The notes beneath the pieces are model-generated. The model did no database searches, was not told the origin of the DNA, and saw nothing but the letters and a program-made list of their open reading frames with translations. A stretch of DNA of 37,809 bases from Urechidicola sp. (GTDB lineage Bacteria > Bacteroidota > Bacteroidia > Flavobacteriales > Flavobacteriaceae). Positions within the stretch are counted from its first letter, which is position 1; each line of letters opens with the position of its first letter. The translations under genes and the position numbers were made by a program. The stretch lies in the NCBI GenBank assembly GCA_028599075.1, contig JAQRMW010000116.1, positions 1-37,809 of the forward strand, in the 5' to 3' direction. Positions 17,446 through 37,625 of this stretch are shown here, in pieces.

Positions 17446-18078
17446 ATGTTTAAAGAGATAAAAGTAAATTATGGCTCCCTTTTTGAAGAAGCTCTTTTAA
17501 AAGAGATTGAAGAAATAGGTGTATATAAAGAGGTTAGAAAGGATGATAAGTTAATCGAAATTGGTGCTTATGTTAAATCCATGCCATTATTGATAAGTGG
17601 AGCAATTAAAATTTTACGCGAAGATGATGATGGTAATGAGCTATTCTTATATTTTTTAGAAAAAGGAGATACCTGTGCTATGACACTTTCTTGTTGTATT
17701 GGACAGGGGCAAAGTAAAATTAGGGCAATTGCCGAAGTTGACTCTAGCCTATATATGATTCCCGTTCAAAAAATGGAAGAATGGACAAGTAAATATAAAT
17801 CATGGAGGAATTTCGTTTTTGCTAGTTATCATAATAGATTACTCGAGCTCTTAGACACTATTGATAATATTGCCTTTTTAAATTTAGACCAACGTTTATT
17901 AAAATATTTACAAGACAAATCTAAAATATCTGATAGTAATATTGTGTCTAGTACCCATCAAGAAATTGCCTATGACTTAAATACTTCAAGAGTAGTAATT
18001 TCTAGACTTTTAAAAACATTAGAAAATAAAAACATCATTGAATTGCAGCGAAATAAAATTATTTTGTTAGAATCATAA
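17446..18078 (+). CDS. Crp/Fnr-family transcriptional regulator of the sulfur island
   Basis: A 210-residue activator with a cyclic-nucleotide-binding-like sensory domain (about 10-110), the long dimer helix (about 112-145) and a C-terminal winged helix-turn-helix (about 165-208, THQEIAYDLNTSRVVISRLLKTLE). In the recognition helix SRVVISR, the position of FNR Glu209 is Val183, while Ser186 and Arg187 match FNR Ser212 and Arg213, so its DNA target should differ from TTGAT. The sensory domain has Cys77, Cys83 and Cys84 (GDTCAMTLSCC), with no N-terminal iron-sulfur cysteines. That suggests thiol or persulfide sensing (inference). It precedes the yeeE-like gene on the same strand. TGTAAC-N4-GTTACA boxes in four promoters downstream are its likely targets. 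A TAATTTTA octamer at 17421 may be its own promoter. Confidence 0.9.
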   Translation: MFKEIKVNYGSLFEEALLKEIEEIGVYKEVRKDDKLIEIGAYVKSMPLLISGAIKILREDDDGNELFLYFLEKGDTCAMTLSCCIGQGQSKIRAIAEVDSSLYMIPVQKMEEWTSKYKSWRNFVFASYHNRLLELLDTIDNIAFLNLDQRLLKYLQDKSKISDSNIVSSTHQEIAYDLNTSRVVISRLLKTLENKNIIELQRNKIILLES

Positions 18079-18127: not shown

Positions 18128-18171
18128 GTAACATTTGTTACTGAGTAACATAAGTTGCATTTCTATATTTA
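18127..18171 (+). promoter_or_regulatory. Operator plus -7 octamer for the yeeE-soe operon
   Basis: TGTAAC-ATTT-GTTACT (18127-18142) matches the island operator with one mismatch. The octamer TATATTTA (18164-18171) lies downstream, and the operator centre is 36.5 bp before its last base. A third half-site, GTAAC (18145-18149), forms an overlapping dyad with the second. The octamer lacks the final G, consistent with an activator-dependent promoter. The gene starts 19 bp further on. Confidence 0.75.
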
Positions 18172-18189
18172 GCAATTAATATTTTAATT

Positions 18190-18747
18190 ATGGAAATCAT
18201 ACTTCAACCTTGGCCATGGTATGTGGCTGGCCCCTTAATAACCCTAGTGATGTTTTTGCTCTTTTATTTCGGAAAGAAATTTGGAGTATCTTCTAACCTA
18301 GAGACCATGTGTGCCATGGGAGGCGCAGGAAAATTTATTGGATTTTTTAATTTTGATTGGAAAAAAAACGGATGGAATTTAATGTTTCTCGGCGGTGCTG
18401 TGATAGGTGGGTTTGTTTCTTATCATTGGTTAACACCAGAAGTAGCTGTAGCTGTTAGCCAAGAAACAATTCAAGATTTATCCGAATTAGGATTTCAAAA
18501 TGCAGGGATGAAATACCTTCCTGATGAAATGTTTAGCATTGAGACTTTATTTACATTAAAAGGATTTTCAATTTTATTAATTGCAGGTGTATTGGTTGGA
18601 TTTGGTTCTCGCTACGCAGGAGGATGTACTTCTGGTCATGCAATTGTGGGTTTGAGTAATTTAGAAATGCCATCCTTAATATCTGTCATCGGATTTTTTA
18701 TTGGTGGATTGATTACAACATGGTTCATTTTACCTCTCATTTTTTAA
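18190..18747 (+). CDS. YeeE/YedE-family sulfur-compound transporter, part 1
   Basis: A 185-residue inner-membrane protein with about four to five membrane segments. It contains GFGSRYAGGCTSGHAIVGLSN near residues 140-160, where the cysteine-centred GGCxSGH motif is the hallmark of the YeeE/YedE (TsuA) family that carries thiosulfate or sulfane sulfur. A second conserved Cys is in LETMCAMGGAG. Proteins of this length occur as split pairs with a second small gene, as here: the partner starts 10 bp downstream. It is the first gene behind the double operator and is likely to bring reduced sulfur in, or sulfur products across the membrane. Direction and substrate are inferred. Confidence 0.9.
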   Translation: MEIILQPWPWYVAGPLITLVMFLLFYFGKKFGVSSNLETMCAMGGAGKFIGFFNFDWKKNGWNLMFLGGAVIGGFVSYHWLTPEVAVAVSQETIQDLSELGFQNAGMKYLPDEMFSIETLFTLKGFSILLIAGVLVGFGSRYAGGCTSGHAIVGLSNLEMPSLISVIGFFIGGLITTWFILPLIF

Positions 18748-18757
18748 AACGATACTT

Positions 18758-19171
18758 ATGAAGAATATTAAATTTTTAATCGTCGGGGTGTTGTTCGGAA
18801 TTGTACTAAGCAAAGCCGAAGTTATTTCTTGGTATCGTATTTACGAAATGTTTAAGTTCCAGTCTTTTCATATGTATGGAGTAATTGGTTCTTCAGTTGC
18901 ATTAGGTGTAATAGTCTTTTATTTTTTTAATAAAGGGATGATAAAATCATATGTAGGAAAACAAATAGAAATTGAGCCAAAAAAGAAAGGCTTCTCTAGG
19001 AATATTTTTGGAGGCATCATTTTTGGCTTAGGTTGGGGCTTAGCTGGTGCTTGTCCAGGACCTATGTTCATCTTGTTAGGAAGAGGGGCTTTACCTATAA
19101 TTGTTGTAATTTTTGGAGGACTTTTGGGAGTACTCTTATATCATGCGTTAAAAAGTAAACTACCACATTAA
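18758..19171 (+). CDS. YeeE/YedE-family (DUF6691) transporter, part 2
   Basis: A 137-residue membrane protein with about four helices, completing the split transporter. The signature GLGWGLAGACPGPMFILLGRG holds the conserved Cys in GACPGP, the counterpart of the GGCTSGH motif of part 1. Full-length homologues carry both halves in one chain, so the two probably form a heterodimer. It is 10 bp after part 1 and 32 bp before the Fe-S/NrfD gene, in one operon. Confidence 0.9.
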   Translation: MKNIKFLIVGVLFGIVLSKAEVISWYRIYEMFKFQSFHMYGVIGSSVALGVIVFYFFNKGMIKSYVGKQIEIEPKKKGFSRNIFGGIIFGLGWGLAGACPGPMFILLGRGALPIIVVIFGGLLGVLLYHALKSKLPH

Positions 19172-19203: not shown

Positions 19204-20820
19204 ATGAAGTACGGCTTTGTAATTGACAATCGAAAATGTATTGGTTGTCATGCTTGTACCACAGCTTGTAAATCGGAACACGACGTTCCCGTTGGCGTTA
19301 ACAGAACTTATGTTAAGCAAGTTGAAAAGGGAGTCTTTCCAGATACCCGAAGAATTTTTTCAGTAATGCGTTGTAACCATTGTACAGATGCACCTTGTGT
19401 GACCATCTGTCCTGTGGAAGCATTGTATACACGCGAAGATGGTATTGTAGATTTTGACAACAACCGATGTATTGGTTGTAAATCGTGTATGCAGGCTTGT
19501 CCTTATGACGCCTTGTATATCGACCCTGACACACAAACTGCTGCAAAATGTAATTATTGTGCGCACAGAGTAGATGTAGGGCGTGAGCCAGCGTGTGTTT
19601 CAGTTTGTCCAGAGCATGCGATTATTGCAGGTGATATGGAAAATCCGACTACGGAAATTTCACAATTACTAGCAAAACAACAAGTAAAAGTTCGGAAACC
19701 TGAAAAAGGAACCAATCCAAACCTCTTTTATATTGATGGTGATGATGCTTCTTTAAATCCAGAGGCTACAGAAAAATCAGGTTCTTGGTTATGGAATTCT
19801 CAAGCTCGTGGAGTAGGGCATTTTGCTAAGGCAGCTGAAAAAATGATGCATACCAATGAAGATGTCGATTTATTACAAATGACTATTGATAACGAAATTG
19901 AATCAGCATATCAAAGAAAAGAGACTGAAAATCCAAACTACATAGATGTTCTTACAGGGAAAGCACGTAGAGTATATGACACCCCAGATAAGGGAATTCT
20001 TTGGGGATGGGAAGTGTCTGCATATGTGACTACAAAAGCTGTGGCTGCAGGAGCATTTTTAATTCCGTTTTTAGCATTTATTATGGGCTATGAATTATCT
20101 GATGCAACCAAATTATGGTCGGCAGGAATATCATTAGTATTCTTATCATTAACAGGATTGTTCTTGGTAATGGACTTAGATAGACCAGACCGTTTCTTAA
20201 ATGTTTTATTAAGACCACAATGGAATTCTTGGTTAGTAAAAGGTGGATATACTATTACTATCTTCGGATTGTTAGTAACCATATGGGGAGCAATGACCTA
20301 TTTTGAAATTGAAACAGGAGAAACTGTTTTACTTTGGATTACAGCATTTTTTGCCGTAATGTTAGCTATTTATACAGCCTTCTTATTTGCACAAGCAAAA
20401 GGACGTGATTTCTGGCAAAGTCCATCATTAGCATTACACATGTTGGTGCATAGTGTTATGGCAGGAGCAGCAATATTTGCTTTAGTATTATTGGTTTCGG
20501 GAACTGAAGATTGGATGTCAATTTTAGGAATGGTGATGATTATTGCTTTATCTGTAAACTTATTTACAATGATTACTGAATTAACGATGACACATCCAAG
20601 TACGTCAGCACATTCTGTTGTAAAAATGATTACTAAAGGAAGATATAAAAACCTATTCTGGTTTGGAGTAGTTGCTGTTGGAAATGTTTTGCCATTAGTA
20701 TTATTAGTTTTAATACCAAGCGCAATGACATTGACTCTCGCAGCAGTACTCATATTATTAGGAATTTACGCAACTGAAAAAATCTGGGTAGAAGCTCCGC
20801 AAAGAGTGCCGTTAGCGTAA
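19204..20820 (+). CDS. Fe-S/NrfD fusion subunit of a Soe-like molybdoenzyme
   Basis: A 538-residue natural fusion. Residues 1-140 are a DmsB/NrfC-type ferredoxin with four cysteine sets: C12, C15, C18, C22; C57, C60, C65, C69; C89, C92, C95, C99; C116, C119, C131, C135. That is enough for four [4Fe-4S] clusters. After a linker (about 150-265), residues 268-530 form eight membrane helices of the NrfD/PsrC/SoeC type, the quinone-binding anchor. There is no Tat or Sec signal, so the clusters face the cytoplasm. In the known SoeABC sulfite dehydrogenase the Fe-S and membrane subunits are separate chains; here they are joined. The catalytic subunit follows at 21275. Electrons from sulfite should pass through this chain to menaquinone. 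It could alternatively serve a polysulfide or thiosulfate reductase. Confidence 0.9.
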   Translation: MKYGFVIDNRKCIGCHACTTACKSEHDVPVGVNRTYVKQVEKGVFPDTRRIFSVMRCNHCTDAPCVTICPVEALYTREDGIVDFDNNRCIGCKSCMQACPYDALYIDPDTQTAAKCNYCAHRVDVGREPACVSVCPEHAIIAGDMENPTTEISQLLAKQQVKVRKPEKGTNPNLFYIDGDDASLNPEATEKSGSWLWNSQARGVGHFAKAAEKMMHTNEDVDLLQMTIDNEIESAYQRKETENPNYIDVLTGKARRVYDTPDKGILWGWEVSAYVTTKAVAAGAFLIPFLAFIMGYELSDATKLWSAGISLVFLSLTGLFLVMDLDRPDRFLNVLLRPQWNSWLVKGGYTITIFGLLVTIWGAMTYFEIETGETVLLWITAFFAVMLAIYTAFLFAQAKGRDFWQSPSLALHMLVHSVMAGAAIFALVLLVSGTEDWMSILGMVMIIALSVNLFTMITELTMTHPSTSAHSVVKMITKGRYKNLFWFGVVAVGNVLPLVLLVLIPSAMTLTLAAVLILLGIYATEKIWVEAPQRVPLA

Positions 20821-21274: not shown

Positions 21275-24166
21275 ATGGGATATAAAAAACCGTCTTTTAT
21301 TGAAAACATTGCAGAGAAAATGGGAATCATTCCAAATCTGCACAAAGAAAAATATCAGGAATTTGATGGAGATATGCGTCAATTTACTGATGAGGAAGTT
21401 GCTCAGATGTATGAGAATTTTCCACCACCAGAAAAATGGGACAATTGGGAAGAATACGACCCTAAAGTATGGCCAAGAAAAAAGAAAACCACCTATCAAA
21501 TTGTACCAACAACGTGTTTTAACTGTGAGTCTGCTTGTGGGTTAACAGCCTTTATAGACAAAGAAACCCAAGAGGTTAAGAAGTTTGAAGGGAACCCACA
21601 TCACCCTGGAAGTAGAGGTAGGAATTGTGCTAAAGGTCCTGCAACTATCAATCAAATTACTGATCCTGACCGTATTTTATTTCCTTTAAAAAGAAAAGGA
21701 AAACGTGGCGAAGGAGAATGGGACCGCATTACTTGGGATGAAGCATTAGACACCATTGCTGCAAGAATTCGCAAAGCGATAAAAGAAGATAGACATAACG
21801 AGATCGCTTATCACGTTGGACGTCCAGGGCACGAAAAATTTATGAACTGGATTCTTCAAGGATGGGGAATTGATGGCCATAATTCACACACAAATATCTG
21901 TTCTTCAGGAGCGCGTTTTGGATATAACATTTGGTACGGTTACGACAGGCCATCTCCAGATCACTCTAATGCAAAATTCATTTTATTGATTTCTGCGCAT
22001 TTAGAATCTGGTCATTATTTCAATCCACATGCACAACGAATTATCGAAGGGAAAATGAAAGGAGCTAAGTTAGCTACTATGGACCCTCGATTATCGAATA
22101 CGGCTTCGATGTCAGATTATTGGATGCCGACTTATCCTGGAACTGAAGCTGCCGTTTTATTAGCAATGGCTTTGATTATTTTGGAAGAAGGATTGTACAA
22201 TAGAGACTATCTTGAAAATTGGACCAACTGGCAAGAATATTTAAAAGCATTGCATAGTGATAAGGAAGTTACTTTCGAAAACTATATCGCTGCAATGATT
22301 GAAGAGTACAAAGAATTCACTCCAGAATATGCAGAAAGCGAATCGGGTGTAAAAGCTGAAACCGTTGTTGAAATTGCAAGACTTATAGGTGATGCAGGTG
22401 AGCGTTTTGCATCTCATAACTGGCGTGCAGCTGGAGCTTCTAACTTAGGAGGTTGGGGAGTTGCCCGTTGTTTACATTTCTTAACGGTATTAACTGGAGC
22501 GGTCGGTGCAAAAGGAGGAACTTCTCCAAATTCTTGGAATAAGTTTAGTCCTACACAGCCTAATCCGCCAAAACCACAAAAGAAATGGAACGAACTTCAT
22601 TTTCCAAAAGAATATCCACTAGCATTTTTTGAAATGAGCCAGTTATTGCCTCATTTCTTAAAAGAAGGAAGAGGAAAAATGGATGTGTATTTTTCTAGAG
22701 TATTTAATCCTGTTTGGACATATCCTGACGGATTTACTTGGATGGAGATGTTTCAAGATGAAGATAAATTTGGATTACACACTGCACTAACTCCAACCTG
22801 GAATGAAACAGCTTTTTATGCAGATTTCGTACTACCAATGGGATTAGCTTCAGAAAGACACGATATAAATTCATACGCAACACACGGTGGAACTTGGGTA
22901 GCTTTTAGACAACCTGTTTTAAGAGAAGCGGCACGTAGAAATGGAAAAGATGTTGAATTTACTTATGAAGCAAACCCAGGAGAAGTTTGGGAAGAAGACG
23001 AATTCTGGATTGAATTGTCTTGGCGAATTGACCCTGACGGAAGTATGGGAATTCGCAAGCATTTTGAATCACCATACCGTCCTGGAGAAAAGATTAAAAT
23101 TGGAGAATACTACCAATATATATTCGAAAGAGTTCCGGGATTACCAAAAGCTGCTAAAGCAGAAGGAATTACCGAACTAGAATATATGCAGAAATATGGA
23201 ACCTTTGAAATTGAAAAAGGAGAATCTTATAAAAAGAACGAAACCATACTTACCAAAGAACAATTAGAAGGTTCGGAAGTAGATCCAACAAATGATGTTA
23301 TCCGTAAAAACGGAAAAGACATCGGAGTGATGATTAATGGACAAGCAATGGTTGGTTTCCCAACGCCATCTCGTAAAAACGAATTTTATTCACAAACGAT
23401 GGTGGATTGGAAATGGCCTGAATATGCAGTACCACAATATTTGAAGAGTCATATCCACAATGATAATTTAGATAAATCGAAAGGGGAATATGTTTTAGTA
23501 CCAACTTTTAGATTACCAACATTAATTCACTCACGTTCTGGTAACGCAAAGTGGTTAGTAGAAATTTCTAATAGAAATCCAATTTGGATGCATCCAGAAG
23601 ATGCTGCTAAATGGGGCTTCAAAACAGGAGATTTAGTAAAAATGAATACAGACATTGGGTATTTCATAGATAAAGTATGGGTTACTCAGGGAATGAAACC
23701 TGGTGTGGTAGCATGTTCACACCATATTGGTAGATGGAGAAGACCTCAAGATAAAACAGGAAACCGTTGGGCAACCAATACCGTAAATATTGAAGGCGAT
23801 GGAAACGGAGGTTGGAAAATGAATACGATTTCTGGTATTAAACCATTTGAATCTGATGATAAAGATTCGAAGCGTATTTTCTGGAAAGACGGTGGCGTGC
23901 ATCAAAATATTACACATGCTGTTCATCCAGATCCAATTAGTGGAATGCACTGTTGGCATCAACGTGTACGGATTGAAAAGCCAGGAGCGGATGAAAATTA
24001 TGGAGATATATTTGTAGATACTAACAAATCACACGAGATTTATAAAGAATGGATGAAAATGACACGACCTGCGCCAGGACCAAATGGAGAAAGAAGACCG
24101 CTTTGGTTTAAACGTGCTTTTACTCCAGATAAATCTACTTTTTATATTGACAAAAAAGATGAATAA
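21275..24166 (+). CDS. Molybdopterin oxidoreductase catalytic subunit, SoeA-like
   Basis: A 963-residue subunit of the DMSO-reductase superfamily. The N-terminal cluster motif is C81-x2-C84-x3-C88...C118 (TTCFNCESACG and NCAKG), so a [4Fe-4S] cluster is present. HTNICSSGARFG offers Cys209 as the likely molybdenum ligand. The C-terminal cofactor domain (VPTFRLPTLIHSRSGNAKW, then VACSHHIGRWR) is complete. There is no twin-arginine signal, which argues for a cytoplasmic enzyme like SoeABC and against periplasmic PsrA, PhsA or TtrA. The neighbours (SQR, persulfide dioxygenase, SulP, YeeE) favour sulfite to sulfate oxidation with quinone as acceptor. An acidic-aromatic N-terminal 75 residues (DNWEEYDPKVWPRKKK) precede the cluster. 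Assignment as SoeA is inference from topology and context. A polysulfide or tetrathionate enzyme is possible. Confidence 0.87.
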   Translation: MGYKKPSFIENIAEKMGIIPNLHKEKYQEFDGDMRQFTDEEVAQMYENFPPPEKWDNWEEYDPKVWPRKKKTTYQIVPTTCFNCESACGLTAFIDKETQEVKKFEGNPHHPGSRGRNCAKGPATINQITDPDRILFPLKRKGKRGEGEWDRITWDEALDTIAARIRKAIKEDRHNEIAYHVGRPGHEKFMNWILQGWGIDGHNSHTNICSSGARFGYNIWYGYDRPSPDHSNAKFILLISAHLESGHYFNPHAQRIIEGKMKGAKLATMDPRLSNTASMSDYWMPTYPGTEAAVLLAMALIILEEGLYNRDYLENWTNWQEYLKALHSDKEVTFENYIAAMIEEYKEFTPEYAESESGVKAETVVEIARLIGDAGERFASHNWRAAGASNLGGWGVARCLHFLTVLTGAVGAKGGTSPNSWNKFSPTQPNPPKPQKKWNELHFPKEYPLAFFEMSQLLPHFLKEGRGKMDVYFSRVFNPVWTYPDGFTWMEMFQDEDKFGLHTALTPTWNETAFYADFVLPMGLASERHDINSYATHGGTWVAFRQPVLREAARRNGKDVEFTYEANPGEVWEEDEFWIELSWRIDPDGSMGIRKHFESPYRPGEKIKIGEYYQYIFERVPGLPKAAKAEGITELEYMQKYGTFEIEKGESYKKNETILTKEQLEGSEVDPTNDVIRKNGKDIGVMINGQAMVGFPTPSRKNEFYSQTMVDWKWPEYAVPQYLKSHIHNDNLDKSKGEYVLVPTFRLPTLIHSRSGNAKWLVEISNRNPIWMHPEDAAKWGFKTGDLVKMNTDIGYFIDKVWVTQGMKPGVVACSHHIGRWRRPQDKTGNRWATNTVNIEGDGNGGWKMNTISGIKPFESDDKDSKRIFWKDGGVHQNITHAVHPDPISGMHCWHQRVRIEKPGADENYGDIFVDTNKSHEIYKEWMKMTRPAPGPNGERRPLWFKRAFTPDKSTFYIDKKDE

Positions 24167-24234: not shown

Positions 24235-25959
24235 ATGCTTCAAAAAATATTCCCATTTCTTACGTGGTTACCGCAAGCAAAAAAATCTTGGAAAGATGAT
24301 TTAATTGCGGGTATCACAGGAACTATTATTGTAATTCCACAGGCAGTTGCTTTTGCTATGATAGCAGGTTTGCCACCAATATATGGTTTTTATACAGCTA
24401 TGATAACTCCAATTGTTGCAGCGTTGTTTGGTTCGTCTTACCATTTAATTTCAGGGCCTACAACAGCAATATCTATTGTTGTCTATTCTACATTAATAAA
24501 GTTTGTGAGTCCAGAAACAGATATCGAAGTATTTGTATCCTTAGCATTAGTGCTGACTTTTTTAGCTGGATTTTTTCAATTTGTTATGGGATTATTAAAA
24601 ATGGGAAAATTAGTAAATTTTGTTTCTCATTCTGTTGTAATTGGGTTTACAGCTGGGGCAGGAATATTAATAGCTTTTAAGCAATTGAAACATGTTTTCG
24701 GAATAAAGGTTCCGCAGGGAAGTACTATTCCTGAAATTTTATCCTATATATTTAATCATATATCTGAAACAAATTGGTATGTCTTTTCGGTTGCCATCGG
24801 AACTTTGGGAATAGCCTTAGCCATTAAGTTTTTGATAAAACCACTGTCTAGATATTATATGTTAATAGCAATGGTTGCAGGTAGTGTATTCGCAATTTTG
24901 TTAGGAGGCGAAGTTAACGGAATCCAAACTGTTGGTGATATTCCATCAAATCTCCCTCCCTTTAGAGTTCCAGACCTTTCTTATGAGAATGTTGCCAAGT
25001 TAAGTTCTGGTGCAATGGTATTAGCTTTGTTAGGATTAATTGAAGCTGTTGCCATAGGTAGATCAATTGCACTTCATACACATCAAAAAATAAATGGGAA
25101 TCAAGAATTTATAGGCCAAGGATTATCTAATATGATCGCTAGCTTTTTCTCTAGTTACGCAGGTTCTGGATCATTTACCCGCTCAGGGGTTAATCATCAA
25201 GCAGGAGCAAAAACACCTTTAGCGGCAATATTTGCTTCCGTTTTTTTGATGGTTGTTTTGTTATTATTAGCTGGTTATGCTTCCTATTTACCAAAAGCAG
25301 CTATGGGTGGAATCATACTACTAGTAGGTTATAATTTAATTGATTTTCACCATATCAAACAAGTTTTTAAAAGTAGTGGTAGAGAGCTTATAGTTCTTGG
25401 AATTACTTTATTAGGAACTTTATTTTTCGATTTAGAGTTTGCTTTATTATCTGGGATTTTTGCTTCGTTTTTCTTTTATATGGAACGTACTTCAAAACCT
25501 AACATTGCTACCCTTGCTCTAGATGATAAAGGAAGGTTAATTAATACGATTAGAGATAGTAATGCAATAGAATGTTCTAGTATGAAAATCCTTCGAATTG
25601 ATGGATCACTCTATTTTGGTTCAATTGAAAAAATTTCTGATTACTTATCTAACCTATATGATCAAAATGATATACAGCATGTGTTAATTGCAGCTGATGG
25701 AATTAACTTTATCGATTTAGCTGCCGCTGAATGGTTGACTCATGAAATTATTAAATGGCAAGAGAAAAGAGGTGGAATTTACTTTTCGGGGCTTAAGCTT
25801 GTTAGTCAAGATGTAATACAAAAAGGAGGTTTTAAAGAAAAAGTTGGTGTAGAAATTTTTTACAAAGATAAAAAAGAAGCCATCACAGAAATTCATAAGA
25901 AAATTAAAACACCTTGCGCAATTAGAGCTTTTGAAGAGTGTAAAGAGATTGACGGATAA
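24235..25959 (+). CDS. SulP-family anion transporter 1
   Basis: A 574-residue inner-membrane transporter of the SulP/SLC26 family. The N-terminal signature is DLIAGITGTIIVIPQAVAFAMIAGLPPIYGFYTAM; about 12-14 helices run to residue 415, then a cytoplasmic STAS domain (about 440-560). The STAS signature, normally D-S/T-[ST], reads FIDLAAAEWL, so the usual serine/threonine site is replaced. In this sulfur-oxidising context it may export sulfate or sulfite, although most characterised SulP proteins are importers. It lies 68 bp after the molybdenum subunit with no operator of its own, so it is probably in the same operon, downstream of the palindrome at 24181. It is a diverged paralogue of the next gene. 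Confidence 0.92.
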   Translation: MLQKIFPFLTWLPQAKKSWKDDLIAGITGTIIVIPQAVAFAMIAGLPPIYGFYTAMITPIVAALFGSSYHLISGPTTAISIVVYSTLIKFVSPETDIEVFVSLALVLTFLAGFFQFVMGLLKMGKLVNFVSHSVVIGFTAGAGILIAFKQLKHVFGIKVPQGSTIPEILSYIFNHISETNWYVFSVAIGTLGIALAIKFLIKPLSRYYMLIAMVAGSVFAILLGGEVNGIQTVGDIPSNLPPFRVPDLSYENVAKLSSGAMVLALLGLIEAVAIGRSIALHTHQKINGNQEFIGQGLSNMIASFFSSYAGSGSFTRSGVNHQAGAKTPLAAIFASVFLMVVLLLLAGYASYLPKAAMGGIILLVGYNLIDFHHIKQVFKSSGRELIVLGITLLGTLFFDLEFALLSGIFASFFFYMERTSKPNIATLALDDKGRLINTIRDSNAIECSSMKILRIDGSLYFGSIEKISDYLSNLYDQNDIQHVLIAADGINFIDLAAAEWLTHEIIKWQEKRGGIYFSGLKLVSQDVIQKGGFKEKVGVEIFYKDKKEAITEIHKKIKTPCAIRAFEECKEIDG

Positions 25960-25966
25960 TTTTTTA

Positions 25967-26011
25967 TGTACTAAAAGTTACATAATAAACTTTCAAATTT
26001 AATTAATTTTG
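25967..26011 (+). promoter_or_regulatory. Operator plus -7 octamer for SulP gene 2
   Basis: TGTACT-AAAA-GTTACA (25967-25982) is the island operator with two changes in the left half. The octamer TAATTTTG (26004-26011) is an exact TAnnTTTG match, and the operator centre is 36.5 bp before its last base, as in the other three promoters. The site begins 8 bp after the stop of the upstream gene. Confidence 0.65.
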
Positions 26012-26045
26012 CACATCTTAAATCGAACCTATTACAAAACAATAA

Positions 26046-27764
26046 ATGGTTTTAAAAAAATTATTTCCAATTCTTGATTGGCTTCCTAATTATAAAAAAG
26101 ATTGGCTTAAAGGAGATATTGTTGCTGGATTAACCGTAGGAGTAATGTTAATTCCTCAAGGTATTGCTTACGCACTTATTGCAGGTTTACCACCAATTTA
26201 TGGTTTATATACAGCAATGATCCCGCAAATTGTATATGCAATTTTTGGTACATCTAGACAGTTAGCCGTAGGACCTGTAGCAATGGATTCTTTAATCGTA
26301 GCAGCAGGTGTTGCAACTTTAGCACAAATAGGAACAGATCAATTTGTAGAATTTGCAATTTTGTTGGCATTGATGATGGGCGTTTTACAAATTGCTTTCG
26401 GAATGTTTCGCCTTGGGTTTTTAGTCAACTTTTTATCAAAACCTGTGATTAGTGGATTTACTTCTGCAGCATCTTTAATTATTGGTTTGAGTCAATTAAA
26501 AAATTTATTAGGAGTTGATATTGCAAGAAATAATCGACTTCAAAATTTACTATCCGAAGCTTTTAGGCATATAAATGAAATTCATTGGATAACATTCATC
26601 ATAGGAGTCTTATCAATCATCACCATCATTTTAATAAAAAAATACGCAAAGCGAATTCCTGCCGCATTAATCGTTGTAATTATATCGATTGTTGTTGTAA
26701 AGTTTTTTCGTTTAGACCAAATGGGTGTAGCAATTATTGGTGAAATTCCTCAAGGGTTGCCAGAATTTAGATTGCCACATCTCAATATTCAGATTTTAAC
26801 TGATTTATTGCCAATTGCTTTTACCTTATCATTCATCGCATTTTTAGAAGCGATTTCAGTAGCAAAAGCTATTGAGGCAAAACATACAGAATATAAAGTG
26901 GTGCCAAATCAAGAATTAATTGCTTTGGGATTAGGAAATGTTGTTGGGTCATTTTTTCAAACATACCCTGCAACAGGAGGTTTTTCAAGAACAGCAGTGA
27001 ATGAGCAAGCTGAAGCTAAAACACCATTAGCTGCATTAATATCAGCACTCATTGTGGCGTATACATTATTGTTTTTGACCCCTTTGTTTTTCTATTTACC
27101 TAAAACTGTATTGGCAGCAATTATTATGGTGGCTGTTTTTGGTTTGCTAGATTTTAGTGTTCCCAAACAATTGTTGAAATACTCAAAAAGAGATTTGGTT
27201 ATTTTAAATGTTACTTTAATTACTACAGCAACTGTTGGAATTAAAGAAGGGATATTAGTAGGGGTAGTTTTATCTCTAGGGATGTTAATTTATAAAAGTA
27301 CAAAACCCCATATAGCTATTTTAGGAAGAATTCCAAACACTCATTTTTATAGAAATAGAAAGCGATTTAAAGATGTTGAAATTGAAGATGACCTTTTAAT
27401 AGTTCGTTTTGATTCACAATTACATTTTGCTAATACTACCTATTTTAAAGATAGACTTTTTGAGTTTGCCGCCTATAAAGGAAATAAATTAAAAATGTTA
27501 ATTATTGATGGTGAGAGTATCAATCAATTAGATTCTAGTGCTATTTATGCATTATTTGAAGTGTTAGATAATTTTAATCAAAAAAATGTAGAAATAGCAT
27601 TTACAGGTTTAAAGGGGCCAACTCGTGATAAAATGATTAAATCTGGATTTATGAAAAAAGCTGGTGCAGATCTGTTTTTTATGAGTATTCAAGAAGCTGT
27701 AGATTGGTATCGGACAGGAAATCAGAAGTCTAAGTTCAAAAAATATTTAAAACAAAAGAATTAA
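26046..27764 (+). CDS. SulP-family anion transporter 2
   Basis: A 572-residue SulP/SLC26 transporter: LKGDIVAGLTVGVMLIPQGIAYALIAGLPPIYGLYTAMI at the N-terminus, multiple helices to about residue 425, and a C-terminal STAS domain (about 445-560) with the standard site QLDSSAIYAL. It shares the fold with the preceding transporter but differs throughout, so the pair is not a recent duplication. The STAS site is intact here and altered in the other. It has its own operator-type promoter (25967-26011). Export of sulfate formed by the Soe-like enzyme is the role suggested by context. Confidence 0.92.
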   Translation: MVLKKLFPILDWLPNYKKDWLKGDIVAGLTVGVMLIPQGIAYALIAGLPPIYGLYTAMIPQIVYAIFGTSRQLAVGPVAMDSLIVAAGVATLAQIGTDQFVEFAILLALMMGVLQIAFGMFRLGFLVNFLSKPVISGFTSAASLIIGLSQLKNLLGVDIARNNRLQNLLSEAFRHINEIHWITFIIGVLSIITIILIKKYAKRIPAALIVVIISIVVVKFFRLDQMGVAIIGEIPQGLPEFRLPHLNIQILTDLLPIAFTLSFIAFLEAISVAKAIEAKHTEYKVVPNQELIALGLGNVVGSFFQTYPATGGFSRTAVNEQAEAKTPLAALISALIVAYTLLFLTPLFFYLPKTVLAAIIMVAVFGLLDFSVPKQLLKYSKRDLVILNVTLITTATVGIKEGILVGVVLSLGMLIYKSTKPHIAILGRIPNTHFYRNRKRFKDVEIEDDLLIVRFDSQLHFANTTYFKDRLFEFAAYKGNKLKMLIIDGESINQLDSSAIYALFEVLDNFNQKNVEIAFTGLKGPTRDKMIKSGFMKKAGADLFFMSIQEAVDWYRTGNQKSKFKKYLKQKN

Positions 27765-27786: not shown

Positions 27787-27831
27787 TGTAACATTAGTTA
27801 CAATGCTTATTTAAAATAAATCTTAATTTTA
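27787..27831 (+). promoter_or_regulatory. Operator plus -7 octamer for the CstB-like gene
   Basis: TGTAAC-ATTA-GTTACA (27787-27802) is a perfect dyad. The octamer TAATTTTA (27824-27831) follows, with the centre of the operator 36.5 bp before its last base. The start codon is 41 bp after the octamer. Confidence 0.75.
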
Positions 27832-27871: not shown

Positions 27872-29293
27872 ATGAAAGTTGAACAATTATTTACAGGATG
27901 CCTCGCAGAGATGGCTTATTATGTCGAGTCGAATGGAGAAGCGGCAATTGTAGACCCTTTAAGAGAAACAGAACCCTATTTAAGAATGGCTGAAGCTGAT
28001 GGTGCAAAAATTAAATATATTTTTCTAACGCACTTTCATGCTGATTTCGTTTCAGGTCAATATGACTTAGCTCAAAAAACAGGAGCAAAAATTGTATTTG
28101 GTCCAAATGCTACAGCTGAATATGATATCTATAATGGAGCAGATGGTGAAGATTTTCCGCTGGGTGATGGCAAGTTAACTTTGATGCATACACCAGGGCA
28201 TACTATGGAATCTTCGTCTTATTTAATTACAGATGAAAATGGAAATACTCCTTGCGTTCTTACAGGAGATGCCTTATTTATTGGCGATGTTGGTCGTCCA
28301 GATTTAGCAGTAAAGCAAGGGACATTGACAGAAGCTGATTTAGCAGGACATTTATTCGATTCACTTCGAAATAAAATAATGAAACTTCCAGATGATATTA
28401 TTGTATATCCAAATCACGGTGCAGGATCAGCATGTGGTAAAAATATGAGCTCTGAAACTTTTGACACTTTAGGAAATCAAAAGAAAACAAATTATGCATT
28501 GAGAGCTGATATGACTAAAGAAGAATTTGTTGTAGAGGTAACTACTGGATTAAAACCACCACCACAATATTTCCCTAACAATGTTAGAATGAACAAAACA
28601 ATCAATACAAGTATTGATGAAATTTTGCATAAGGGAACTACTCCAATCGACCCAGTGACCTTTAAAGAAATGAGTGAGCAAAAGGATGTTTTGGTTATTG
28701 ATACACGATCAAAAGATGCATTTACTAATGAGGGAACAATTCCAGGAGCTTGGTATATTGGTATAGACGAAAGTTTTGCACCATGGGTAGGGGCATTAAT
28801 TTCCGATATCAATCAAAAAATAATTTTTATCTCTGATGATGAATTGCGTGTTAATGAAATTGCAACTCGTTTCTCTAGAGTGGGGTATGACAATACATTA
28901 GGATATTTAGCCGGAGGTATAAAAGACTGGATGGCACATGGTTTTGCTATCGATAAAATTGGATCTGTATCTGCAGCTAAATTTGTAAATATGTTAGCTG
29001 AAGGTAAAATTGAAAAACCAGTTGATGTTCGTAAAGAATCAGAATATAATTCTGAACACGTTATTGGAGTAGAAAATTTCCCATTAGATTTTATCCACTC
29101 TAATTTTGCTGAGATAGATGCTTCTAAAGAATATTTCTTGCATTGTGCATCAGGGTTTAGATCTTTAATCGCAGCCTCAATATTTATGGCAAATGGAGTA
29201 GAGAAAGTTACTGATGTAAGAGGAGGTTTTATTGATATTCAAGAAACAAACGCTCCTTTATCAGAGTTTGTTTGCCCAACAACAATGTTGTAA
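27872..29293 (+). CDS. CstB-like persulfide dioxygenase-rhodanese fusion
   Basis: A 473-residue cytosolic protein. Residues 1-245 are a metallo-beta-lactamase persulfide dioxygenase of the ETHE1/Blh type: THFHADF (H54, H56), MHTPGH (H110), LTGDALFIGDVGRPD (D133). Two rhodanese domains follow. The first (about 260-355, VLVIDTRSKDAF) lacks the catalytic Cys (IFISDDE at that place) and should be inactive. The second (about 365-465) has the active loop HCASGFR with Cys425. This MBL, dead rhodanese, live rhodanese order is that of staphylococcal CstB, which turns persulfides made by SQR into sulfite and thiosulfate. It has its own operator promoter upstream and a strong terminator downstream, so it is monocistronic. 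Confidence 0.93.
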   Translation: MKVEQLFTGCLAEMAYYVESNGEAAIVDPLRETEPYLRMAEADGAKIKYIFLTHFHADFVSGQYDLAQKTGAKIVFGPNATAEYDIYNGADGEDFPLGDGKLTLMHTPGHTMESSSYLITDENGNTPCVLTGDALFIGDVGRPDLAVKQGTLTEADLAGHLFDSLRNKIMKLPDDIIVYPNHGAGSACGKNMSSETFDTLGNQKKTNYALRADMTKEEFVVEVTTGLKPPPQYFPNNVRMNKTINTSIDEILHKGTTPIDPVTFKEMSEQKDVLVIDTRSKDAFTNEGTIPGAWYIGIDESFAPWVGALISDINQKIIFISDDELRVNEIATRFSRVGYDNTLGYLAGGIKDWMAHGFAIDKIGSVSAAKFVNMLAEGKIEKPVDVRKESEYNSEHVIGVENFPLDFIHSNFAEIDASKEYFLHCASGFRSLIAASIFMANGVEKVTDVRGGFIDIQETNAPLSEFVCPTTML

Positions 29294-29388: not shown

Positions 29389-29433
29389 TGTAACCTATGT
29401 TACTTATCTACATCAGAACAAGTGTTAATTTTG
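29389..29433 (+). promoter_or_regulatory. Operator plus -7 octamer for sqr
   Basis: TGTAAC-CTAT-GTTACT (29389-29404) has one mismatch from a perfect dyad. The octamer TAATTTTG (29426-29433) is exact, and the operator centre is 36.5 bp before its last base. The start codon is 145 bp after the octamer, so the transcript would carry a leader of about 140 bases, AT-rich and without an obvious hairpin or reading frame. Confidence 0.75.
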
Positions 29434-29577: not shown

Positions 29578-30918
29578 ATGGCATTACATCATCAAATAGT
29601 AGTAATAGGTGGCGGGACTGGAGGTATTATGGTTGCAGCTCAGCTTAAAAAAGCGAAGAAGGGGCTTGATATAGCAATTATAGATCCTACTGAAACACAT
29701 TATTACCAACCGGCAAATACATTAGTTGGTGCTGGAATTATGGATTATGAAGACACACAAAAACCTGAAAAGAATTTTATTCCTTCGGGAGTTTCTTGGA
29801 TTAAAGAAAGGGTTGCTGATATTCAGCCAGATGACAATGAGGTGATTCTAGAAAATGGAGATAAAATAACCTATGATTATTTAGTGAATGCTACAGGTAT
29901 TCAAATAAATCTAGATGGTATAAAGGGACTTAAAGAAGCTTTCGGTAAGAACGGAGTTTGCTCTAACTATGTTGACCCTGAATATACTTGGGAGTTAATG
30001 CAAAAATTTAAAGGTGGTAACGCTTTATTTACCCAACCAGCTTCGCCTATTAAATGTCCGGGTGCTCCTCAAAAAATTATGTATTTAATGGGAGATTATG
30101 TTGCAAAGCATCAATTAGAAGAGCATACTAATATAATTTTTGCAACTCCAGGAACTATGATTTTTGGTGTGCAACCTTTTAGAGATGAACTTGAAAATTA
30201 CCTTATTAAATATCATATTAAACAACGTTATGGTTATAAACTTGTAGAAATTGATGGTGAGAAAAAAGAAGCACATTATGTGCGTTTGGAGTTGCCTAAT
30301 GGTAGCGATAATTATGTGGTAAACGATGAAAGGAATGCTGCAGGTTGTATTGGTCAAGTTTGGGAAGATGGTGTAAGACGTGAAGTGCAAGAAGTAAATT
30401 CTACTTTTAAAATGACAAAAGAAGGGACACATTATATTATTAAATATGATATGCTACATTTGGCACCACCACAATCAGCACCAACATGGTTCCAAAAAAC
30501 AAAATTGGCCAATGAGGATGGTCCTAATAAAGGTTGGATGGCTGTAGACAAACATTCAATGCAATCAAGAAAATATCCTAACGTATTTGGAGTTGGTGAT
30601 GTTACCGATTTACCAACTGCTCGTACCGGAGCTGCAATTAGAAAGCAAGCACCTGTTGTTGTAAAAAACATTTTGCGTTTAATGGGAGGTAAAGAAGCAG
30701 ACTGCAAAGAATATAATGGTTATTCTTCTTGTCCATTAGTAGTTTCTCCTAAAAAAATGTTACTAGCTGAATTTGGCTATGATGGTGTTAGAATGTCAGA
30801 CCCATTGTTGAGTAAATTTTTTAATACAGGTAAAGCAAGTTACCCAATGTGGATATTGAAAAGACACGGATTACCATTTATGTATTGGAACTTAATGCTA
30901 AAAGGATATAATTTTTAG
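29578..30918 (+). CDS. sqr: Sulfide:quinone oxidoreductase, type II-like
   Basis: FAD enzyme at the inner membrane that oxidises sulfide to a persulfide and passes electrons to quinone. The N-terminal FAD motif is IVVIGGGTGGIMVAAQL, and the second FAD-binding segment is NVFGVGDVTDLPTARTGAAIRKQAP. The two redox cysteines of the type II (SQRDL-like) group are Cys160 in SPIKCPGAPQK and Cys385 in YSSCPLVV. At 446 residues it has the usual length of this type. The amphipathic C-terminus (PMWILKRHGLPFMYWNLML) should hold it to the membrane. It is expressed alone from an island operator promoter. Its product persulfide is the natural substrate of the CstB-like enzyme just upstream. Confidence 0.95.
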   Translation: MALHHQIVVIGGGTGGIMVAAQLKKAKKGLDIAIIDPTETHYYQPANTLVGAGIMDYEDTQKPEKNFIPSGVSWIKERVADIQPDDNEVILENGDKITYDYLVNATGIQINLDGIKGLKEAFGKNGVCSNYVDPEYTWELMQKFKGGNALFTQPASPIKCPGAPQKIMYLMGDYVAKHQLEEHTNIIFATPGTMIFGVQPFRDELENYLIKYHIKQRYGYKLVEIDGEKKEAHYVRLELPNGSDNYVVNDERNAAGCIGQVWEDGVRREVQEVNSTFKMTKEGTHYIIKYDMLHLAPPQSAPTWFQKTKLANEDGPNKGWMAVDKHSMQSRKYPNVFGVGDVTDLPTARTGAAIRKQAPVVVKNILRLMGGKEADCKEYNGYSSCPLVVSPKKMLLAEFGYDGVRMSDPLLSKFFNTGKASYPMWILKRHGLPFMYWNLMLKGYNF

Positions 30919-33907: not shown

Positions 33908-35458
33908 TTAATGAACTGATTTTTCTTTATCTTTTTCAAGACCAAAATAAGATGACTTGTTGTCAGCTTCTTCCGCTTCGTTCTTAATTTTTTCAGACCA
34001 ATTGCCTTTTTCAACAGCTAATTTATTCCATTCCTTTTCTAAGGTGTTTTTGAATTCTAATTTGGCCTCAGTAAGTTTTTGAAGAGGAACGCCAGCTAAT
34101 TTCTGAGCATTTTCTTTAGTTTCAAAATCAGGTGCTGCGTATTTCCAAACGCCCTTTTTAGCTAAGATTCCTACAATTTCTAATCTAGCTTGCATAGCAT
34201 AGTCATTTGCTACAGAAAGAAGTCTTAAAGTTTCTTCAGGTGCATGGAAAAAAGAAGGGTGAGAGGCTACTGCATAATCCCATCTCCATTGTCCTTTTCT
34301 TACTAAGTCTCTAACTCCCTTTAATTCTTCGTCTGTTGCACCAACTTCCATACATTTAGCTATTTCAAGATGAGCTTTAGCTAAGTTATCCATAGCTATT
34401 TCATGTAGCTGATCTTTTCTAACATATTTCTGACTTACAATACCTCTTAGCTTACTTTCACTTTCTCTATGACAAGGCATACAAGATCTATCCATTGTAT
34501 TTAATGGGTTTTGTAATTGGTGATCAGAATATTTAACCGACCCCTCTTGTGTATATGGCATATGACAATCTGCACAAGAAACACCTTTTTGACCATGAAT
34601 ACCAGTTAAATATAACTCATAGCCTGGGTGTTGTGTTTTTAATACAGGTACTTGAGAAATTTTATTTTTAAAATCTGTATGACCTACTTCATCATAATAC
34701 TTTTCAGCACCTTCGGCTGTTAAACCATTTTGCCAAGGGAATGTTACTACTTTTGCAATTTTTTCAACTCCATCTTTGTCTGTCCACTTTTCTTTTTTAA
34801 AGTAATACTCAGAGTGACATTGTGCACAGACTAAGCTTCTTTTTACTTGATGTGTTGACTCTTCAAAAGAAGGTTTTCCTGCAGCTTTTAATGCTCTATT
34901 CATATAAGGCACATGTATTGCTAACTCTGCAGTTTTATTATCGTGACAGTTGTAGCATCCAATAGGGTTTTTAATTTCACTACCATATTTTGCCCATTTT
35001 CCAGTAAAATATTCAAGTTCACCATCATCCTCAGTCATTCTTGGGACATCTGGCGATTTACATGTCCAACATGCTGTTGGCATTGGTCCTGTTTTATCAT
35101 CAACAGGAGCGCCAGTTCTAAGAGTATTGGTGTTATCTTGTACTGCATAATAATGTCCTCTAGGTGCATTATAATCTTTAGCAAATCCATACCCAGCCCA
35201 AAGAATAGCTAATTGCGATTTATCAGCAAGCATATCTGTGATATCATCACTTTCTTTGGTTTTTAACCAAGATCCATATTGTCTAGGGTAGTATCTAGAC
35301 CATTTTTCATTTTCAGCTCTGTCTTCATGAGCAATTTCTGGAGTCTCATTTAAGATAACTCTATCTTCATTATTCTTTTTTATATTTCTGGTTAATAGAA
35401 ATAAAGCTACTATAACTAGTATTAGTATAGATAACAAAATTTTGAAATTAATTTTCAT
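33908..35458 (-). CDS. nrfA: Cytochrome c nitrite reductase, catalytic subunit
   Basis: Periplasmic pentaheme enzyme reducing nitrite to ammonium with six electrons. Five heme sites are visible: CWTCK (130-134, the Lys-ligated catalytic heme), CYNCH (168-172), CAQCH (211-215), CADCH (295-299) and CMPCH (326-330). At 516 residues it is in the normal range. An N-terminal hydrophobic helix (residues 4-23) is a signal or an uncleaved anchor. It follows nrfH by 25 bp. Electrons come from menaquinol through NrfH. NrfA can also reduce NO and sulfite in other bacteria, which could matter beside a sulfite-forming pathway. Confidence 0.97.
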   Translation of the reverse strand: MKINFKILLSILILVIVALFLLTRNIKKNNEDRVILNETPEIAHEDRAENEKWSRYYPRQYGSWLKTKESDDITDMLADKSQLAILWAGYGFAKDYNAPRGHYYAVQDNTNTLRTGAPVDDKTGPMPTACWTCKSPDVPRMTEDDGELEYFTGKWAKYGSEIKNPIGCYNCHDNKTAELAIHVPYMNRALKAAGKPSFEESTHQVKRSLVCAQCHSEYYFKKEKWTDKDGVEKIAKVVTFPWQNGLTAEGAEKYYDEVGHTDFKNKISQVPVLKTQHPGYELYLTGIHGQKGVSCADCHMPYTQEGSVKYSDHQLQNPLNTMDRSCMPCHRESESKLRGIVSQKYVRKDQLHEIAMDNLAKAHLEIAKCMEVGATDEELKGVRDLVRKGQWRWDYAVASHPSFFHAPEETLRLLSVANDYAMQARLEIVGILAKKGVWKYAAPDFETKENAQKLAGVPLQKLTEAKLEFKNTLEKEWNKLAVEKGNWSEKIKNEAEEADNKSSYFGLEKDKEKSVH

Positions 35459-35483
35459 TTTTTTAAGTTTATTTATTATTGAT

Positions 35484-36014
35484 TTATTTTTCTTTTACGC
35501 CTAAATTATATGGTGTTGTTGTAATACCTCTAACTTTACCATGTGGTACACTTTTGTGGCATTCCCAACATTTACGTCCACCTTCAATATCACTTTGTTC
35601 ATCATAATTATGATACTTATCTGCACTCTCTACCAATGTAGATGTAACAGATTTATGACAACTAATACAATTCTTTTGAACGCGTTCTGCTCCATAATCA
35701 CTTATTTTTATTGTATTATCATAAGTCTTAAGGGTAAAAGCTACAGAATGATTCCAACCATCAATAGACTTAGCTACATATTTAGATATGTTGCTGTCAG
35801 TTGGTAGGTGACAATCTACACAAGTTGCTCTTTGCGCATGCGAACTGTGTTGCCAAGTTGCATATTGCGTATTCATTGCATGACAATTAATACATGCTTT
35901 AGGGTCACTTGATAAGTACGATGGCATTTTTGATTCGTATATAATATATACAAACATTGCAAATGCAATTGCTCCTACTAGAAGCGTAACCCTTTTTAAA
36001 TTAATGTTTTTCAT
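35484..36014 (-). CDS. nrfH: NrfH, tetraheme quinol dehydrogenase
   Basis: Membrane-anchored NapC/NirT-family cytochrome that takes electrons from menaquinol to NrfA. One N-terminal helix (residues 8-26) is followed by four heme sites: CINCH (41-45), CVDCH (65-69), CISCH (116-120) and CWECH (149-153). CINCHAM has the Met (47) that ligates the first heme in known NrfH. At 176 residues it is the compact four-heme form. It begins 5 bp after the porin stop and precedes nrfA by 25 bp. Confidence 0.95.
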   Translation of the reverse strand: MKNINLKRVTLLVGAIAFAMFVYIIYESKMPSYLSSDPKACINCHAMNTQYATWQHSSHAQRATCVDCHLPTDSNISKYVAKSIDGWNHSVAFTLKTYDNTIKISDYGAERVQKNCISCHKSVTSTLVESADKYHNYDEQSDIEGGRKCWECHKSVPHGKVRGITTTPYNLGVKEK

Positions 36015-36019
36015 TAATA

Positions 36020-37345
36020 TTATTGTTTTTGTTTTTCGGCTTTATAATTAAATAGATTAGGTTTAAAGGTAACCATTACCCATGCCCAACTGTTATGGAT
36101 ACTGCTATCACCTCCTTTAATTATTTCCATTGAATCTGTTGCCAACATTTGTGAATACCCTGCATTTAGGTTGATGCTTTTGGTTAATTTATAACCCAAT
36201 GCAAAATCAATTTCTGTACCTAAATAATTATCCGTTTTTTCACCTGATCCATTAATTATATCTGCAGCTGACGAAAATATATGTGGAATTATTTTTGCAG
36301 AAAATTTATCTTTAGTGTATGCTAAATTAAAATAAATATCTACTAAACCAACATTATTAGCATGGTTACCTACATAAAAATAATCCATCCAACCATTAAA
36401 TTTATGATTTGTACCAAATAGGGGAGCAAAAGATTTTAAATCTGTACTAGTATCGTCCATATCTTTACCAGAAAGATATTCACCTCCTATGCCAGCTTTA
36501 AAATTATCATTGATTTTATAACCGAAATTTCCTCCAAAATATGCTGAGCTTACACTTTTATCTAAAGATTTTCCAGTTTGAAAATAAATAGAAGCATCTG
36601 CACTTATTTTTCCAGCTTTATAGGTTACTCTTGGCCCTATGGTTTGCATAAAATCGATGGTTTTATCTTCGTCAATTGTCCCCACATTTTCAAGATATTC
36701 AATACCTGTATTTAATAGTAAGAAGCTAACTTTTACTTTATCAAATTTTCCATGATACCAACCATATTGAAAAGTCTTATACCCAGCTGCATTACTATAC
36801 AATGCATCAATTCCTGATTGAGAATCGGCATTATAAGCAAAACCTAAATCTACTCTGTGGTTACTAGTTGGTGTGAATTTTACTAAAAGGGCATCATGGC
36901 TACGAGCTTGTTGTGCCCAACCCACATTACCAAAAATTCTTGAATCGTCATATATGATTTCTTGACGACCAAATTTCATACTCCACTTTTCAGAAAGTAC
37001 TGCTTCTGCCCAAGCTTCATGAAAAGAAATTGCATTATCATCTGCTGCTAATGTGCTTACGTCTCCCCAAACTCTTACATTCTGAAGAGCAACTTTAAAA
37101 ATCATTTTACTTTTCTTAAAGTTGAAATTGATTCTTGTACGTTGCGAAATAAAGTTAGCTGCTTCATCACCATCAGTTCTAAGTGTTTTAAAACCATATT
37201 TGTTTTCGAAACGAGGTCTTAATTCACCAGAAAGATTAAATTCTTGAGCTGTCAAATTAAATGAGAACAGTACAAAAAATAAAAAAAGACATTTAAAAAT
37301 GATGCTTCTTTTTAACTGCGAAAAATTGTTGGTAATTGTATTCAT
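36020..37345 (-). CDS. Outer-membrane porin, alginate-export-like family
   Basis: A 441-residue outer-membrane beta-barrel. The N-terminal signal peptide ends at FNLTAQ, after which the mature chain starts EFNLSGELRPRFENKYG. The body alternates short polar and aromatic strands, with the motif WSMKFGRQEIIYDDSRIFG typical of the alginate-export porin family, and ends with strand NSWAWVMVTFKPNLF near the C-terminus. It is the first gene of the nrf operon, so it probably lets nitrite, formate or another small anion cross the outer membrane. The exact solute is unknown. The FNR-like promoter lies directly upstream. Confidence 0.85.
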   Translation of the reverse strand: MNTITNNFSQLKRSIIFKCLFLFFVLFSFNLTAQEFNLSGELRPRFENKYGFKTLRTDGDEAANFISQRTRINFNFKKSKMIFKVALQNVRVWGDVSTLAADDNAISFHEAWAEAVLSEKWSMKFGRQEIIYDDSRIFGNVGWAQQARSHDALLVKFTPTSNHRVDLGFAYNADSQSGIDALYSNAAGYKTFQYGWYHGKFDKVKVSFLLLNTGIEYLENVGTIDEDKTIDFMQTIGPRVTYKAGKISADASIYFQTGKSLDKSVSSAYFGGNFGYKINDNFKAGIGGEYLSGKDMDDTSTDLKSFAPLFGTNHKFNGWMDYFYVGNHANNVGLVDIYFNLAYTKDKFSAKIIPHIFSSAADIINGSGEKTDNYLGTEIDFALGYKLTKSINLNAGYSQMLATDSMEIIKGGDSSIHNSWAWVMVTFKPNLFNYKAEKQKQ

Positions 37346-37406
37346 TTGCTTGTGTTTTTATTAGATAATATTTAAAGTAATTGATGATTATATTTTATTT
37401 TCATAG

Positions 37407-37450
37407 CAAACATATTGCTAAAACAAGTGTGATTATATGATAAAAATCAT
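37407..37450 (-). promoter_or_regulatory. FNR-like operator plus -7 octamer for the nrf operon
   Basis: ATGAT-AAAA-ATCAT (37437-37450) is a perfect dyad, one base per half from the FNR consensus. On the minus strand the octamer TATGTTTG (37407-37414) matches TAnnTTTG exactly. The operator centre is 36.5 bp from the octamer's last base, the same geometry as the sulfur promoters. The start codon of the porin is about 60 bp further on. Confidence 0.75.
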
Positions 37451-37609
37451 TAAATAAAATAAATTTTCAAAGGAATTATTTTATTAAATAAAGAATGTAA
37501 GTAGCTGTAAATAAATAGGATATGTGTTGCTAAGTATCAATTTTATACCCTGCCCGTTTCTGTTAACTTGACTTTTAATAAAAAAAGAAATGCAGATTTT
37601 AAAATAGAT

Positions 37610-37625
37610 TGTAACAAAAGTTACA
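37610..37625. promoter_or_regulatory. Orphan TGTAAC-N4-GTTACA operator
   Basis: TGTAAC-AAAA-GTTACA is a perfect dyad of the island type. No TAnnTTTG octamer lies 36.5 bp away on either strand. It is 265 bp upstream of the nrf operon start codon, so it may act from a distance, serve a gene beyond the right edge, or be a relic. Confidence 0.55.

Follow-up and report, generated by a model that had tools for sequence, protein, structure and literature searches.

A Crp/Fnr family with an invariant cysteine beside sulfide-oxidation genes: operator specificity at residue 183 and putative sensing of sulfane sulfur

The window analyzed here, a stretch of 37,809 nucleotides from a Urechidicola sp. contig (JAQRMW010000116.1), carries a Crp/Fnr regulator gene at the head of a group of sulfur genes, which raises the question of what signal such a protein would sense and which DNA it would read. 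Sulfide and thiosulfate oxidation genes are common in heterotrophic Bacteroidota and Rhodobacterales, and their local regulator is unnamed. The reading that we favor, and hold to be rather likely, is a Cys77-based sensor of sulfane sulfur (persulfide) that would act as class II activator of local sulfide oxidation, reading TGTAAC-N4-GTTACA through Val183. The protein belongs to a widespread and almost unstudied family of putative DNA-binding activators that head sulfide-oxidation operons in several phyla and probably sense reactive sulfur through one invariant cysteine, while a single residue determines the DNA box read by each version.

The regulator and the island it heads

The regulator gene and its relevant codons are as follows:

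17446-18078, plus strand: Crp/Fnr-family regulator gene of the Cys77 family (ATG start, 210 aa; assigned by Pfam, alignment to CRP and orthologues)
17674-17697, plus strand: cysteine codons, Cys77 at 17674-17676 and Cys83-Cys84 at 17692-17697, in a short helix in place of the cyclic-nucleotide phosphate-binding cassette
17989-18006, plus strand: recognition-helix codons Arg182-Val183 ... Ser186-Arg187 (position 183 is Val or Glu in the family)

The product is a member of the CRP/FNR superfamily, with a cNMP-binding beta-roll domain and a Crp-type helix-turn-helix. Pfam cNMP_binding (PF00027) and HTH_Crp_2 (PF13545) were both matched above cut-off, and CRP folds were matched in a fold comparison. 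The initial annotation had placed Val183 at the FNR Glu209 position with the Ser-Arg pair kept, and had described three cysteines with no N-terminal iron-sulfur cysteines. Alignment to CRP bears out the former, since Val183 falls on CRP Glu181 (FNR Glu209) in a recognition helix (...NTSRVVISRLLK) that retains Ser186-Arg187, and the 210-aa reading frame agrees with the latter, Cys77, Cys83 and Cys84 being its entire cysteine complement. In the same alignment the cassette residues Gly71-Glu72 and Arg82-Ser83 of cAMP-binding CRP are replaced by CAMTLSCC...QSKI, and the protein scores 58 with the NCBIfam CRP model against a cut-off of 266. It is likewise set apart from iron-sulfur FNR by having no Cys before position 77 and Val183 rather than the Glu209 equivalent. 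An AlphaFold2 model of good overall quality (pLDDT 85, pTM 0.62) contains a helix at residues 78-83 (local pLDDT 64-70), which would put Cys77 at the helix N-cap; the model is weak at residues 71-90, and no distances between cysteines are therefore claimed. The nearest solved structure by sequence and fold, the Crp/Fnr protein 3DV8 of Eubacterium rectale, has equivalents of Cys77 and Cys83, but carries Glu at position 183 and was solved without an assigned function.

Downstream of the regulator gene lie the genes of the island:

18190-19171, plus strand: YeeE/YedE pair, TsuA-like (Sulf_transp 18190-18747; DUF6691 18758-19171)
19204-20820, plus strand: fused 4Fe-4S/NrfD subunit, PsrB-PsrC- or SoeB-SoeC-like
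21275-24166, plus strand: molybdopterin oxidoreductase, PsrA/SoeA-like (no NCBIfam equivalog cut-off reached)
24235-27764, plus strand: two SulP-type anion transporters (24235-25959 with Sulfate_transp and STAS; 26046-27764 a similar protein)
27872-29293, plus strand: fusion of metallo-beta-lactamase (MBL) fold and rhodanese, probable persulfide dioxygenase (PDO)/sulfurtransferase
29578-30918, plus strand: sulfide:quinone oxidoreductase (SQR)-like flavoprotein (type III SQR model, E = 2.4×10−65, below its cut-off)

We take this gene set to be a route from sulfide through persulfide and sulfite to sulfate. The molybdopterin subunit has no TAT-type start and is similar to SoeA, which is cytoplasmic, an assignment that we make tentatively. 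A gene of the 23S-rRNA-intervening-sequence type encoding a four-helix bundle (TIGR02436; 20924-21232) stands between the genes of the Fe-S/NrfD and molybdopterin subunits, where a close relative (L004) has no such insertion.

Residue 183, the operator and the promoter

The initial annotation had further tied Val183 to a TGTAAC operator, and comparison among homologous loci strongly supports this association. Among the Bacteroidota homologues, the box GTAAC-N4-GTTAC was observed at 25 of 54 V183 loci and 1 of 60 E183 loci, whereas GTGAY-N4-RTCAC was observed at 0 of 54 and 28 of 60, respectively (P = 5×10−9 and 3×10−10 for the two box types, Fisher's exact test), the box letter thus shifting with the residue. 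When all 5-bp inverted repeats in intergenic DNA were searched without prompting, GTAAC-N4-GTTAC was the top repeat in V183 loci (two CCx sets with 63/69 and 19/23 loci, and a CGG set with 5/25); several E183 sets gave repeats of GTGAT-N4-ATCAC, GTGAC-N4-GTCAC and TGTGA. Val and Glu are exchanged at least five times in a tree of 129 proteins, and among box-bearing loci there are three changes of box type, each at a change of residue; the independent Val/Glu pairs with box data are all concordant, and at two to three they are too few for a sign test. Both paralogues occur together with both box types in two clusters (L016, L133).

Classical CRP Glu181 mutants accept A:T in place of G:C, in agreement with this rule, and the replacement of Glu by Val183 would allow A to be read at the specificity base in place of G. 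The pairing of V183 with GTAAC and E183 with GTGAC is also in line with published work in which the residues at CRP positions 180/181 correlate with the operator bases, and in which HcpR2, having Pro for Glu, goes with GTAAC-N4-GTTAC (PMC1274295). If the rule is right, the family offers a natural series of one-residue switches in operator specificity (Glu with GTGAC, Val with GTAAC), and the natural paired operators, with both paralogues in some clusters, a ready system for changing specificity without cross-talk.

The following boxes and promoter elements were located in the window:

18128-18141, unstranded: box GTAACATTTGTTAC upstream of yeeE (TGTAAC starts at 18127)
18145-18158, unstranded: second box upstream of yeeE, one mismatch, GTAACATAAGTTGC, overlapping the first
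18164-18171, plus strand: -7-like element TATATTTA, 29 bp from the yeeE box centre
27788-27801, unstranded: box GTAACATTAGTTAC upstream of PDO-rhodanese, with -7-like TAATTTTA at 27824-27831
29390-29403, unstranded: box GTAACCTATGTTAC upstream of SQR, with -7-like TAATTTTG at 29426-29433
37611-37624, unstranded: box GTAACAAAAGTTAC upstream of the minus-strand genes porin-nrfH-nrfA, -7 element imperfect

In 85 of 241 box-gene pairs, TANNTTTG, the established Bacteroidetes -7 element, has its start exactly 29 bp downstream from the box centre, and no other offset accounts for more than 5 pairs. For V183 loci alone it is found at +29 in 83 of 224 pairs (138 with the last base relaxed), and E183 boxes with a visible -7 element have a spacing of +29/+30. 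The boxes before yeeE, PDO-rhodanese and SQR all obey this spacing, which puts the box near -41.5, where CRP and FNR bind as class II activators. We infer from this geometry that the regulator activates rather than represses: a bound dimer would recruit RNA polymerase, as in class II activation, to the transcription units of yeeE-psr-sulP, PDO-rhodanese and SQR.

The box occurs well beyond chance expectation and is concentrated in intergenic DNA, with 179 copies in 150 kb compared to 10 in 1.34 Mb of coding DNA across 82 related loci. The regulon in the organism's own genome was derived from pattern searches. The whole genome holds 16 exact boxes, of which 4 lie in the window although the window makes up 1.1% of the genome (binomial P about 3×10−5), and 3 of the 5 sites that combine a box with exact promoter spacing are in the window as well. 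Elsewhere, two exact boxes occur in a cluster encoding rhodanese-domain proteins, and further ones adjoin a rhodanese-OsmC-DUF2892 operon, precede napD-napA, or separate the gene of a molybdopterin oxidoreductase from that of a multiheme cytochrome; several more have no sulfur link. Should the favored reading hold, the regulon would be predictable from the 14-bp box and the fixed -7 spacing.

Further regulators are encoded in the same genome: a paralogue with Ile at position 183 (L002), one with Glu there that adjoins a YeeE pair of its own (L003), and an HcpR2-like protein with Pro (L299). Some of the boxes, in particular those before the nap and nrf genes, may therefore be targets of another protein. 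By the published rule L299 should read the same box, and not every GTAAC box must therefore be that of the Val183 regulator. Could the Val183 protein itself be an HcpR2-like regulator responding to NO or nitrite? The HcpR2 group (Bacteroides, Clostridia, Thermotogales) has the same GTAAC-N4-GTTAC box and has equally lost the CRP Glu181 equivalent (PMC1274295), and the boxes before the nap and porin-nrf genes would suit such a role. HcpR2, however, has Pro where the regulator has Val183, and controls hcp in an NO-linked manner with no tie to sulfide genes, whereas the neighbors in the window are sulfur genes and hcp is absent from the recurrent neighbors of the family. With a separate Pro-type regulator in the same genome, we regard this alternative as very improbable.

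Several smaller observations concern the boxes and paralogues. The exact box before porin-nrfH-nrfA (33908-37624, minus strand) suggests either that nitrite or sulfite reduction is placed under the sulfur box as well or that an HcpR2-like protein acts through this box. Tandem overlapping boxes 17 bp apart precede yeeE in the window (18128/18145) and in the closest relatives (L004, 10688/10705; L030, 10638/10655), and two exact boxes 22 bp apart are present at a rhodanese-domain protein cluster of the own genome (L089/L090, C39:1909-1944). The second YeeE pair of this genome (L003/L247, contig C95) has its own E183 regulator, in which C77 is present and C83 and C84 are absent.

Cysteine conservation, gene context and the candidate signal

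Homologues were collected in two ways. The first set comprises orthologues from 80 GTDB loci (62-94% identity), mostly beside PDO, rhodanese, YeeE or SQR genes; Val183, C77 and C83 are present in 80 of 80, but because one search pattern was EKGDTCAM, which contains a Cys, the set is biased and its Cys counts are not trusted. The second survey was a full-length protein search of 296 Bacteroidota genomes, which yielded about 120 regions and 118 aligned family members; 37 other Bacteroidota Crp/Fnr proteins from this survey, aligning to the family model at E values of 1×10−10 to 1×10−24, served as controls. C77 is present in all 118 members and in none of the 37 controls, and R182 and R187 are invariant in the family. 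C83 is found in 64 of 118 members and C84 in fewer; single-Cys members exist, and in many members no Cys other than C77 is conserved. At position 183, 62 members have Glu and 56 have Val, Ile or Ala, and Val does not occur there in any of the 37 controls, which have mostly Glu, a few Pro and one Gln.

The cysteines and residue 183 are found in every combination, among them E183 with CCC and V183 with CGG, and hence do not travel together. Of the co-variation expected among the three cysteines, Val183 and the TGTAAC box, the part that stands is that Val183 tracks the box; a strict coupling of the Cys trio to Val183 is rejected. Nor is the trio kept as a unit: C77 always is, C83 is missing in about half of the family, and C84 is Thr or Ser even in two first-set loci (L013, L015) with the same psr-type genes as the window.

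The placement of the regulator at the head of a sulfide-oxidation island, claimed by the initial annotation from the window, recurs across the family. MBL/rhodanese, YeeE or SQR genes are located within 6 kb of 78 of 116 family loci and of 1 of 37 controls (P = 4×10−13, Fisher's exact test), and TauE exporter genes accompany 29 of 116 family loci and 0 of 37 controls. The linkage holds in each subgroup (V-C83 21/25, V-other 20/31, E-C83 27/39, E-other 12/23), thus the sulfur link tracks C77 rather than the trio. A conserved Cys linked to sulfane-sulfur detoxification genes is the combination that marks sulfane-sulfur sensors, and the family has both. The further feature of two or more Cys for di- to tetrasulfide bridges extends only to the members with C83, and a two-Cys polysulfide bridge cannot be general. 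Taken as a whole, the earlier claim of a thiol-based sensor is partly supported, and on these comparisons thiol sensing of sulfane sulfur by the regulator is plausible. The invariance of C77 points to it as the sensor, and the gene context points to the sulfur ligand.

A mechanism may be proposed on this basis. In a sensory domain that has lost the cyclic-nucleotide cassette, the invariant Cys77 would start a short helix, with Cys83 often one helix length on. Sulfane sulfur made by SQR, as persulfide or polysulfide, would modify Cys77, perhaps bridging to Cys83 or Cys84, which could be optional resolving partners; the modification would alter the dimer toward an activator state that binds TGTAAC-N4-GTTACA boxes. 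If this is right, Cys77 alone marks a sulfide-responsive activator in many genomes.

A general thiol redox switch, in which C77 and C83 sense oxidants or disulfide stress and the sulfur genes are one output, appears rather unlikely. A peroxiredoxin gene follows the Paenibacillus member and another lies near the Chelativorans member, trxB adjoins the Pontibacter member, and a mutant of PgRsp from Porphyromonas gingivalis is peroxide-sensitive (PMC6955866). The neighbors are nevertheless mostly sulfane-sulfur enzymes and YeeE/TauE transporters, not peroxide defence, and C77 is the sole conserved Cys in many members.

PgRsp, which does not bind cAMP and was reported as a heme-binding redox regulator (PMC6955866), is probably a family member, judging from residue spacing rather than sequence: its Cys76, Met78 and His85, mutated by its authors, are spaced as C77, M79 and H86 of the CIMSFLGG-H subgroup. 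The spacing of Cys-x-Met and of a His at Cys+9 is matched by the CGG subgroup, but the window protein has Gly86. As a probable relative binds heme, a heme-based sensor (of H2S, O2, NO or redox state) using C77 and M79, like Cys75/His77 of CooA, is the main rival. The PgRsp single mutants C76A, M78A and H85A, however, retained heme and spectra, Met occupies position 79 in only 13% of E-C83 members, and besides C77 no Cys, His or Met of the sensory domain is invariant among the 118 members. CooA-type heme binding requires that the region of CRP residues 72-82 be absent (PMC12937710); in the alignment the regulator has this region, and its Cys at the equivalent place is accompanied by Met79 instead of His77. 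Heme is thus possible but less likely, and we consider it quite unlikely as the signal.

Known sensors offer few parallels within this fold. FisR, SqrR/BigR and CstR are likewise local regulators of sqr, pdo, rhodanese and YeeE-type genes with reactive Cys, but have unrelated folds (sigma-54 activator, ArsR and CsoR, respectively), and SqrR, BigR and CstR act by repression. The bacterial sensors of reactive sulfur listed in a review are CstR, SqrR/BigR/PigS, FisR and OxyR, and no CRP/FNR member is named in the passages retrieved. No CRP/FNR sensor of sulfane sulfur or persulfide was found in the literature searched, many subscription papers lying outside its scope. The nearest case is the Crp of Acinetobacter baumannii (A1S_1182), which is persulfidated in sulfide-treated cells but is a canonical CRP/Vfr relative (about 50% identical) not located at a sulfide operon (PMC7315123). 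RedB of Rhodobacter capsulatus was considered as a possible named member and rejected, as neither a Cys-based mechanism nor a sulfide operon is described for it and its motif is non-palindromic.

Members beyond Bacteroidota

The family also reaches Rhodobacterales, Thiothrix and Firmicutes, as seen in plasmid records, which do not give a frequency. Plasmid homologues with C77-x5-C83 and Glu183 were found in Ruegeria, Paracoccus, Pseudosulfitobacter, Thioclava, Chelativorans, Azospirillum and Thiothrix, and a Paenibacillus homologue keeps C77 and not C83. Several alphaproteobacterial members with C77-x5-C83 head operons of the DUF2892-YeeE-DUF6691-MBL-SQR-SulP type. That the subfamily as a whole (Bacteroidota, Alpha- and Gammaproteobacteria, Firmicutes) senses sulfane sulfur directly, through the invariant Cys that replaces the cAMP phosphate-binding cassette, has in our estimate about an even chance. 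If true, class II activators that persulfide switches on would be known from CRP/FNR for the first time, and this fold would join those known to sense it.

A GTGAC-N3-GTCAC-like palindrome was present in 9 of 9 non-Bacteroidota loci examined (three with one mismatch), shortly upstream of the next genes. At these loci (L327-L330, L334-L338) the palindrome is 13 bp long with a spacer of N3, compared to 14 bp with N4 in Bacteroidota, the spacer thus differing by one base in addition to the Glu/Val switch.
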